DNA of 47,737 nt, taken from positions 1 to 47,737 of IMG/VR virus record IMGVR_UViG_3300017735_000016. One strand, given 5' to 3'. The number at the start of each line of letters is the position of its first letter. The first letter of the stretch is position 1. Position numbers and translations under genes: made by a program. The notes below the pieces were generated by a model. That model was not told the origin of the DNA, made no database searches, and saw nothing but the letters and a program-made list of their open reading frames with translations. Below, in pieces: positions 29,874 through 31,921 of this stretch. Source of the stretch: a virus.

Positions 29874-29900
29874 AAAATACTACATATAAAAAAATTAATA

Positions 29901-29932
29901 AAGTTCAAGGGGTTGACTCTTGGACTTTTTTT
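29901..29932 (+). terminator. Intrinsic terminator before the SSB gene
   Basis: Stem AAGTTCAAG / CTTGGACTT (29901-29909 with 29919-29927, one G-T pair), 9-nt loop, then seven T. The -33 TTG of the SSB promoter lies inside its loop. Confidence 0.85.
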
Positions 29933-29943
29933 GTGTATCTTTT
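29913..29943 (+). promoter_or_regulatory. Bacteroidota-type promoter for the SSB gene
   Basis: TTG (29913-29915), 20-nt spacer, TATCTTTT (29936-29943), the same spacing as the polymerase promoter and one base off TAnnTTTG. The promoter overlaps the terminator, so the two signals are compactly joined. Confidence 0.55.
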
Positions 29944-29977: not shown

Positions 29978-30823
29978 ATGAGTTCAATCGACGCAATTCT
30001 TTCTCAGTATGAGAAAAACACGCAACCAGCCGCAGGCGGCAACAGAATTTCCAGTGAGGAAAGACTTAAAAAGTACTTCACTACAATTCTTCCTAAAGGA
30101 ACACAATCAGGACAAAAGAGAATTAGAATTCTCCCAACAACTGACGGTACAAGTCCGTTCCAAGAAATCGCATTCCATGAAGTACAAGTAGATGGGAAAT
30201 GGTTAAAACTTTATGATCCATCACAAGATGGTGACGTATCTCCGTTAAACGAGGTAAGACAAAGTTTATTATCAACAGGAAGTGAGGATGACAAAATCTT
30301 GGCAAGAAATTATAGAGCAAAAAAATTCTATATAGTCAAAGTTATCGATAGAGATAACGAACAAGATGGTCCAAAATTTTGGAGATTCAAACACAACTAC
30401 AAAGGTGATGGTAATTTAGATAAAATTATACCTATCATTAGAAGTAAAGGTGATATTACAGATGTTGTTGAAGGTAGAGATTTAATACTATCGTTAGCCG
30501 TAACTAAGGCAAACAATGGTAGAGAATACACTACTATCAACTCAATTATTCAAGAAGATAAGTCAGGTTTACATACTGATCCTGAAGTAAGTAACGGATG
30601 GGTTAATGACCCACAAACATGGAGAGATGTTTACTCTGTTAAACCTCTTGAGTACTTACAATTGGTAGCATCAGGTGAAAACCCTGTTTGGGATAAAGAC
30701 GCTAAGAAGTTTATATCTTCTATGGGTGGTGAGGAAACATTTGGAGGATCATCAATGACACCTAAGGTAGAAGTGGAAGATCCACAATCAACAACAAAAG
30801 TAGACGACAACCTACCATTTTAA
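29978..30823 (+). CDS. 32: Single-stranded DNA-binding protein (T4 gp32-like)
   Basis: The 281-residue product has the gp32-type core: 'KRIRILPTTDGTSPFQEIAFHEVQVDGKW', 'FWRFKHNYKGDG', 'GRDLILSLAVTKANNGREYTTINSI', and a C-terminal acidic tail ending DDNLPF (residues 276-281), which binds replication partners in both gp32 and bacterial SSB proteins. The size is near T4 gp32 (301). It contains no cysteine, so the zinc site that uses three Cys and one His in T4 gp32 is absent. The A-rich N-terminal SIDAILSQYEK likely handles cooperativity. It is the first gene of the replication cluster and has its own promoter. Downstream lies the structured leader of uvsX. Confidence 0.85.
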   Translation: MSSIDAILSQYEKNTQPAAGGNRISSEERLKKYFTTILPKGTQSGQKRIRILPTTDGTSPFQEIAFHEVQVDGKWLKLYDPSQDGDVSPLNEVRQSLLSTGSEDDKILARNYRAKKFYIVKVIDRDNEQDGPKFWRFKHNYKGDGNLDKIIPIIRSKGDITDVVEGRDLILSLAVTKANNGREYTTINSIIQEDKSGLHTDPEVSNGWVNDPQTWRDVYSVKPLEYLQLVASGENPVWDKDAKKFISSMGGEETFGGSSMTPKVEVEDPQSTTKVDDNLPF

Positions 30824-30830
30824 TTAACAC

Positions 30831-30910
30831 GGACCCACCCAAAACAATTATTGATGGAAACATCTGGTGGAGTAAGAAAAACCGATTAGTCGGTCCCTAC
30901 GGGTGGGTCC
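30831..30910 (+). ncRNA. Structured RNA element upstream of uvsX (three-way junction)
   Basis: A perfect 10-bp closing stem, GGACCCACCC (30831-30840) with GGGTGGGTCC (30901-30910), encloses two smaller hairpins: GATG-GAAA-CATC with a GNRA-type loop (30853-30864) and ACCGA-TTAG-TCGGT (30881-30894). GGTGG inside the loop (about 30866-30870) can compete for the 5' arm. The 3' arm ends 15 nt before the ATG of uvsX. It may be a translation-control leader, a processing site or a poor terminator. Confidence 0.55.
30854..30889 (+). CDS. Possible 11-residue leader peptide ahead of uvsX
   Basis: ATG at 30854 opens METSGGVRKTD and stops at TAG 30887-30889, within the loop of the structured RNA. A translating ribosome would cover GGTGG and disturb the second hairpin. 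It may be chance; there is no good ribosome-binding site. Confidence 0.2.
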   Translation: METSGGVRKTD

Positions 30911-30925
30911 ATTTTAAAAAAGAAT

Positions 30926-31921
30926 ATGGCAATTAAGAAAAAAGATTTTAAAAGTATCAAATCAAAGTTCTCTAAACAGGCGAAGTTTAAGTCTGATAAG
31001 TTTTTTGATTTAGGTGATGCGTTTTTAGATGCTACAGGATTACCAGGTCCGTCCATGGGACATATTAATATGTTTTTAGGACACTCAGATACAGGTAAAA
31101 CAACGGCACTTGTTAAAACCGCAGTCGACGCACAGAAGAAAGGTGTACTTCCTGTTTTTGTAATTACAGAACAGAAGTGGGATTTTCCACACGCAAAATT
31201 AATGGGTCTTGATATTGAAGAAACAGTTGATGAAGAAACAGGAGAAATTGAATACGATGGATTTTTCTTATTCAATAATGAATTTCAATATATAGAACAA
31301 ATTACTGATTACATAAATGAATTATTAGACGCTCAGAAGAAAGGTGAATTAGAATATGATTTACTATTCTTGTGGGATTCGGTTGGGTCCGTACCATGTA
31401 AAATGACATTTGATGGTAAAGGGGGTAAACAACATAATGCATCGACGTTAGCCGATAAAATCGGTATGGGATTAAATCAGAGAATTTCAGGTTCAAGACG
31501 AGTTGATTCAGAATATACAAATACACTTGTTATTGTTAATCAACCATGGGTTGAACTTCCTGATAACCCATTTAGTCAACCAAAAATTAAGGCAAAGGGT
31601 GGTGAATCAATATGGTTAAACTCCACACTTGTATTTAGGTTTGGTAATCAGAAAAATGCGGGTACTAACCCTATCTCTGCAGTTAAAGACAAGAGAAAGG
31701 TAAAATTCGCAACAAGAACGAAGATTTCTATCATGAAAAACCATGTAAATGGTCTTGGATATGAAGATGGTAGAATCATTGTGACCGCACACGGGTTTCT
31801 AAGTGGAAAAGATTCTACTGAGGAAAAGAAATCCTTAGAGGGATACAAAAAGGAACACGCAGAGTTTTGGAAAGACCAATTGGGTATCGAGGGTGACTTC
31901 GACATCAAAGAGGAGGTATAG
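30926..31921 (+). CDS. uvsX: UvsX/RecA-like recombinase
   Basis: The 331-residue product has a RecA core: Walker A GHSDTGKT (52-59), Walker B LLFLWD with Asp151, and 'SGSRRVDSEYTNTLVIVNQPWVELPDNPF' with the 'VNQPWV' loop typical of UvsX. The length is below T4 UvsX (391) and it ends in an acidic tail (FDIKEEV). It pairs single strands with homologous duplex DNA for recombination-dependent replication, together with gp32 (the gene before it). The start ATG is 15 nt after the structured RNA, so its translation could be controlled by that fold. The end runs directly into the 5' nuclease gene after 26 nt. Confidence 0.92.
   Translation: MAIKKKDFKSIKSKFSKQAKFKSDKFFDLGDAFLDATGLPGPSMGHINMFLGHSDTGKTTALVKTAVDAQKKGVLPVFVITEQKWDFPHAKLMGLDIEETVDEETGEIEYDGFFLFNNEFQYIEQITDYINELLDAQKKGELEYDLLFLWDSVGSVPCKMTFDGKGGKQHNASTLADKIGMGLNQRISGSRRVDSEYTNTLVIVNQPWVELPDNPFSQPKIKAKGGESIWLNSTLVFRFGNQKNAGTNPISAVKDKRKVKFATRTKISIMKNHVNGLGYEDGRIIVTAHGFLSGKDSTEEKKSLEGYKKEHAEFWKDQLGIEGDFDIKEEV

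Follow-up and report, generated by a model that had tools for sequence, protein, structure and literature searches.

The window, i.e. the whole stretch of 47,737 nucleotides of viral DNA that was analysed (IMG/VR record IMGVR_UViG_3300017735_000016), carries between its ssb and uvsX genes a structured RNA which, judged by its sequence plan, is the single-module form of an RNA whose multi-module arrays include wcaG (RF01761). The identity and anatomy of this module are assigned with high confidence. The best overall explanation, to which we give close to an even chance, is that this single-module wcaG-related RNA may act independently of its position, as a trans-acting or stable RNA. The element and its neighbours comprise the following features.

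29978 to 30823, plus strand: ssb gene (single-stranded DNA binding protein), upstream of the element (PHROG 224/1192)
30831 to 30840, plus strand: 5' arm of the outer stem, which encloses the core; compensatory arm changes in relatives
30853 to 30864, plus strand: hairpin 1, GATG-GAAA-CATC, with a GNRA loop; both partners of its pairs vary within the family
30854 to 30889, plus strand: 11-codon frame ATG...TAG, unconserved and judged not to be a gene
30865 to 30872, plus strand: single strand UGGUGGAG, invariant in alignments A1 and A4, an invariance partly built in because most pattern scans demanded UGGUGGAG, so that the described forms are favoured
30881 to 30894, plus strand: hairpin 2, ACCGA-UUAG-UCGGU, covarying family-wide
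30894 to 30896, plus strand: YCC that closes the core, UCC in the window, its U also shutting hairpin 2
30901 to 30910, plus strand: 3' arm of the outer, terminator-forming stem
30912 to 30915, plus strand: U-run of the terminator tail, weak, with 4 U in the window and 4-6 U in relatives
30926 to 31921, plus strand: uvsX-like recombinase gene, downstream of the element (PHROG 97)

The core of ~45 nt (30853-30896) consists of hairpin 1, UGGUGGAG, hairpin 2 and YCC. The module follows a self-contained plan of U-rich flank, hairpin 1, UGGUGGAGY, hairpin 2 and NYCC; the GG of the loop and the terminal CC of the core are both invariant. The window RNA has a folding energy of -30.2 kcal/mol, compared with -20.3 ± 3.1 kcal/mol for 200 shuffled sequences, none of which folds as well (z = -3.23), and with flanks included the z-score is -3.19. 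An earlier reading of the DNA, made from the sequence only, had described a perfect closing stem of 10 bp around two hairpins, one with a GAAA loop, and a 3' arm ending 15 nt before the uvsX start. All of this is borne out: the stem has ten pairs, the hairpins lie where they had been placed and uvsX starts at 30926.

To obtain relatives of the element, uvsX and ssb homologs were taken from viral contigs and the gaps between them were read. Close relatives retain the element at the ssb|uvsX gap, with outer-stem arms that are fully replaced yet still paired (GGACCCACCC/GGGTGGGTCC, GGGTCCCC/GGGGACCC and GAACCTATCCCCC/GGGGGGTAGGTTC). Hairpin 1 occurs among them as GACG-GAAA-CGTC (L007) and as the 5-bp form GATGT-GTGA-ACATC (L102), and TGGTGGAG and the final CC are constant. 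The covariation check that the sequence-only reading had proposed thus finds the stems preserved by compensatory changes in relatives that keep the flanking genes. More distant relatives show a plain short GC hairpin and a U-run at the same spot, and the outer stem is therefore regarded as the terminator of the gap and the core as an insertion or elaboration. In other words, the ssb|uvsX gap has the 10-bp outer stem as its intrinsic terminator, grown around the core in this phage group, and in the window the core lies in the ssb 3' UTR, enclosed by the terminator stem. As in intrinsic (Rho-independent) terminators generally, a GC-rich stem (30831-30840/30901-30910) is followed by a U-run, here a weak one (30912-30915), at a gene junction. 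Unlike in such terminators, the loop of 60 nt contains an independently conserved RNA core. A separate terminator-like hairpin, AGTTCAAG...CTTGGACT followed by a T-run, is found at 29895-29935 between the phrog_858 gene and ssb, so that the window phage may commonly have terminators in narrow gaps between genes.

Two further features named by the sequence-only reading are present, but the roles proposed for them are not supported. The mini frame of 11 codons is present, but is not conserved: its ATG is lost in several relatives (it reads GACGG in L007 and L105 and is gone in L011 and L108), and the length of the frame varies elsewhere. A leader peptide or upstream frame was rejected, as a short frame with start and stop codon is not conserved in these relatives. 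Similarly, GGUGG (GGTGG in the DNA, 30866-30870) is able to pair with CCACC of the 5' arm, as had been suggested, but competition for this arm as a switch is not supported, since GGUGG is invariant even where the enclosing arm is missing. The pairing CCACC:GGUGG is confined to the ssb group, in which L139 retains no more than CCAC, and a switch of this kind was rejected as limited to one phage group.

Pattern scans of viral contigs reveal the same core at other junctions, on numerous contigs of unrelated phages, where it lacks the enclosing stem and is followed by a separate terminator; many of the GC-rich matches of the first viral scan were due to chance and were excluded by a GC cut. The core adjoins at least a dozen different gene pairs. 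Its 72 instances have 17 upstream and 13 downstream protein clusters as neighbours, a rough count that probably includes some out-of-frame upstream calls. The commonest downstream neighbours are a WEK-type gene (22 times) and uvsX (17 times), both of which dominate the sample. In standalone members a stop codon usually lies 3-34 nt upstream of the core, and a terminator lies 42-72 nt downstream in 44 of the 45 standalone members outside the ssb group, compared with 5.9% of random stretches; the sole exception (L595) looks like a chance match within coding sequence. At four loci (L183, L195, L198 and L220) the 5' arm of the downstream terminator repeats GGTGGAG, so that GGUGGAG of the core is a possible second partner for its 3' arm, CTCCACC (or CTTCACC); this type of terminator is absent from L168, L215 and L421.

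These contexts do not agree with a switch or attenuator between ssb and uvsX, as had been supposed, because the core sits at many other junctions. Nor do they agree with control tied to uvsX, as several phages that have uvsX without an adjoining core carry the core far off. The two are at least 70 kb apart in G015, G019-G021, G025 and G026, and the ssb|uvsX gap of G020 and G021 contains a plain terminator. More generally, ssb-uvsX phages that miss the core at this junction often have it elsewhere. Diverged copies are detected in G036 and G041 with a covariance model and in G035 with a second model, none of them adjoining uvsX; UGGUGGAG is changed to UGGUGGAAG in G035 and to UGGUGGAUC in the crAss-like phage cr128_1. 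The element resembles the translational operator of T4 gp32 in being a structured RNA that adjoins an ssb gene. The T4 operator sits upstream of its own gene, whereas the window element follows ssb, a gene to which it has no tie in other phages. An autogenous operator of the gp32 type is not supported, as the constant adjacency to ssb that it predicts is not seen across phages.

The conservation of the stems is also evident from scans that fixed the single strand and a portion of hairpin 1 and left hairpin 2 unconstrained. In many phages the arms of hairpin 2 are then found to be wholly different and still complementary, as in CCGAC/GUCGG, GCCAA/UUGGC, CUGAC/GUCAG, GACUA/UAGUC and others. The MAFFT alignments A1-A4 misplace hairpin 1; covariation was counted on alignment A8 (45 distinct sequences), a model-fitted alignment whose stems are also recovered by an alignment-free search. 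All ten pairs in A8 are altered on both sides, and 97.4% of the cells are paired, compared with 80.4% for shuffled partners (0 of 500 shuffles reach the observed value) and 20-49% for slid controls.

The copy number of the core is low. A strict pattern matches exactly once per record in 35 of the 35 records that have the core, including contigs of 322, 318 and 308 kb, and the reversed pattern gives no match; many records are fragments, so that 'one copy' describes the recorded sequence. Likewise, the model R2 finds one place per genome in most records, among them the tmRNA phages, which show no further copy. A search of 396 Bacteroidota genomes with a core-type pattern yields three chance-type matches, no more than the reversed control. 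In the window, R2 matches 30852-30896 with 17.6 bits (E 0.0016), its training set having included two window relatives (L007 and L105). This score is modest; the window element is assigned to the module chiefly through close relatives, which link the window to the other members.

Searches of the window itself agree with the earlier statement that no known riboswitch or ribozyme is recognised there, as no Rfam family reaches its threshold and neither strict nor lax settings give a credible match. Bacteroidales-2 on the other strand was dismissed at 13 bits, far under its cut-off of 204. The wcaG model gives no match in the window at its gathering threshold (42 bits), nor around the element up to E 10. 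A tRNA-like reading was also discarded: TGGTGGAGC resembles a tRNA D-arm, yet ARAGORN calls no tRNA in the window. Among isolated phages, BLAST at E 1e-5 finds neither a match to the standalone module with its flank nor a relative of the window ssb. By UvsX similarity, the closest isolates belong to the immuto group of Flavobacterium phages (46% identity). The gene order ssb-recombinase-exonuclease-DnaB is common to the window phage and Flavobacterium phage immuto, and the ssb/recombinase junction of the immuto group has no room for the element.

The relation to wcaG emerges from cyanophage genomes. At six cyanophage-type loci an Rfam wcaG RNA has the core nearby or immediately upstream, and in the isolates S-SRM01 and S-IOM18 the core is directly upstream of it. 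The wcaG consensus itself is a tandem built on the same plan, in which UGGUGCGGA and UGGCGAG replace UGGUGGAG. In S-RIM2 the Rfam wcaG model takes a UGGUGGAG module as its first module (56 bits, cut-off 42), and R2 conversely matches the second wcaG module in S-IOM18 (19 bits). Like each wcaG module, window positions 30853-30896 contain a hairpin, UGG with a G-rich strand, a second hairpin and CC. Unlike wcaG, which is an array of two tandem modules of the UGGUGCGGA and UGGCGAG type, the window has a single UGGUGGAG module and no Rfam match. Among 104 distinct wcaG RNAs gathered by pattern, 64 are preceded by TGGTGGAG at a distance of up to 110 nt, and 84 are followed by a terminator within 180 nt, compared with 8.7% of controls. 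wcaG, which occurs in cyanophages and marine metagenomes, was proposed as a riboswitch candidate and described as regulating downstream genes in cis (Weinberg 2010, PMC2864571), and it is handled as a cis-regulatory RNA in the open-licence papers PMC2864571, PMC9964418 and PMC9602691. In view of the terminators that follow 84 of the 104 arrays, it seems doubtful whether wcaG is rightly labelled a 5' leader of the following gene. Individual wcaG loci (L642:1001-1200 and L643:984-1153) illustrate that an additional UGGUGGAG module often stands before wcaG, and a terminator usually after it. The S-IOM18 array sits just before tRNA-Pro, and one contig with a wcaG/module array and a tRNA cluster also carries an abiF RNA (RF03085, L524:8207-8243).

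A second set of contexts is formed by genes of stable RNAs. The core is located inside the tmRNA of four phages, identified by RF00023 above its cut-off or, for one of them, by ARAGORN.

L603, 2901 to 3224: phage tmRNA with module (RF00023)
L540, 5602 to 5962: phage tmRNA with module (RF00023)
L506, 1 to 309: phage tmRNA with module (RF00023)
L560, 350 to 725: phage tmRNA with module (ARAGORN)

In these tmRNAs the module occupies the region from the tag stop codon to the 3' acceptor half, and in L603 little else remains of the usual pseudoknot region. The same arrangement is judged by eye to be present in L520, L593 and the crAss-like phage cr128_1. The likely tmRNA of cr128_1 (MT774392.1, L810:560-1240), which is missed by ARAGORN, combines the module with a group I intron (RF00028) close to its 3' end. 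Lactococcus phage WRP3 has the core between tRNA-Arg and tmRNA, with a skipping-rope RNA nearby; this unannotated row of RNAs (KM677185.1, L811:808-1755) reads tRNA-Arg, module, tmRNA, tRNA-Asp, skipping-rope RNA. The module resembles the tmRNA pseudoknots PK2-PK4 (RF00023) in that it fills the pseudoknot stretch of L603, L540 and L560, and differs from them in that the cyanobacterial and Hymenobacter host loci examined lack it and the window element lies outside any tmRNA. Cyanobacterial tmRNA has two small tandem pseudoknots (PMC1168896), which provide an analogy only. It is possible to regard the copies embedded in tmRNA as no more than a structural substitute for pseudoknots. Derivation of the module from host tmRNA was rejected, as it is absent from the host tmRNA loci examined (cyanobacteria and Hymenobacter).

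Copy number one, changing neighbours and the sites in stable RNAs (tmRNA interior and tRNA clusters) argue for an RNA with a function of its own, as opposed to a regulator of the gene beside it. A trans-acting or stable-RNA role, considered by itself, is a tentative assignment. Transcription through ssb would halt at the terminator, and the terminated or processed 3' piece of ~80-100 nt would be a stable RNA, in which the two hairpins might display UGGUGGAG as the contact site for a conserved partner. This partner could be an RNA, bound by base pairing, or a protein that belongs to the host machinery for translation or decay. The position of the core inside the terminator loop and the weak run of 4 U in the window count against this role. 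In addition, a single copy would also suit a cis element required by one transcript, and the uvsX (17 times) and WEK-type (22 times) contexts may leave room for some link in cis.

One such cis role is that of a 3'-end element, which would shield the upstream transcript or tmRNA body from 3'-to-5' exonucleases or set a processing site. Nearly all standalone members lie between a stop codon and a terminator, the core folds independently of this terminator, and in tmRNA it replaces the usual pseudoknots between tag stop codon and 3' acceptor half. However, a general stabiliser is expected at many transcripts per genome, whereas about one copy is found, and the single strand UGGUGGAG is conserved far past the needs of a mere plug; we consider this role rather unlikely. 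Control in cis could also involve sensing of a ligand, with the core as the aptamer of an attenuator or riboswitch that governs the terminator and hence the downstream gene. The invariant, aptamer-like loop next to a terminator would suit this, as would the former candidacy of wcaG itself (PMC2864571) and the ability of CCACC in the 5' arm of the window group to pair with GGUGG. Such sensing is nevertheless improbable, because the ~13 downstream clusters share no pathway and include tRNA or tmRNA genes, and because the tmRNA-internal copies have no terminator within 120 nt. Moreover, the helices of core and terminator are distinct and do not overlap in standalone members, so that no mutually exclusive pairing is conserved. 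That the element is just an ordinary, elaborate terminator with its inner hairpins as decoration is suggested by the plain GC hairpin and U-run of distant relatives, but is hardly credible and already contradicted by conservation of the core at other loci and in tmRNA, where no stem encloses it.

A more specific form of action in trans would have alanine-type RNAs as its target, with a widespread phage RNA directed at their 3' acceptor end. tRNA-Ala and tmRNA usually end in CUCC-A-CCA. UGGUGGAG is the exact complement of this CUCCACCA end, including U70 of the G3-U70 identity pair, and the module lies in or beside tmRNA and tRNA genes of several phages. On the other hand, wcaG modules carry other sequences after UGG, and such targeting appears very improbable. 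The idea that the module pairs with the 3' end of the tmRNA in which it lies was rejected: the tmRNAs of L560 and L520 retain UGGUGGAG and have 3' ends that read GUCCAC, from which it follows that the module does not pair with its own carrier. If alanine-type RNAs were indeed the target, phages would sequester or reroute host tmRNA or tRNA-Ala, e.g. to curb trans-translation during infection.

The single-copy RNA at transcript 3' ends in large phages related to Flavobacterium phages is undescribed in the open-licence literature. Its assignment to the wcaG module joins three things that are found separately there, if at all: this single-copy 3'-end RNA, the module-bearing phage tmRNAs, and wcaG, an orphan cyanophage RNA that has been a riboswitch candidate since 2010. 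The function of the module is directly testable in laboratory phage-host pairs, since isolated cyanophages (S-IOM18, S-SRM01 and S-RIM2) as well as Lactococcus phage WRP3 carry it.
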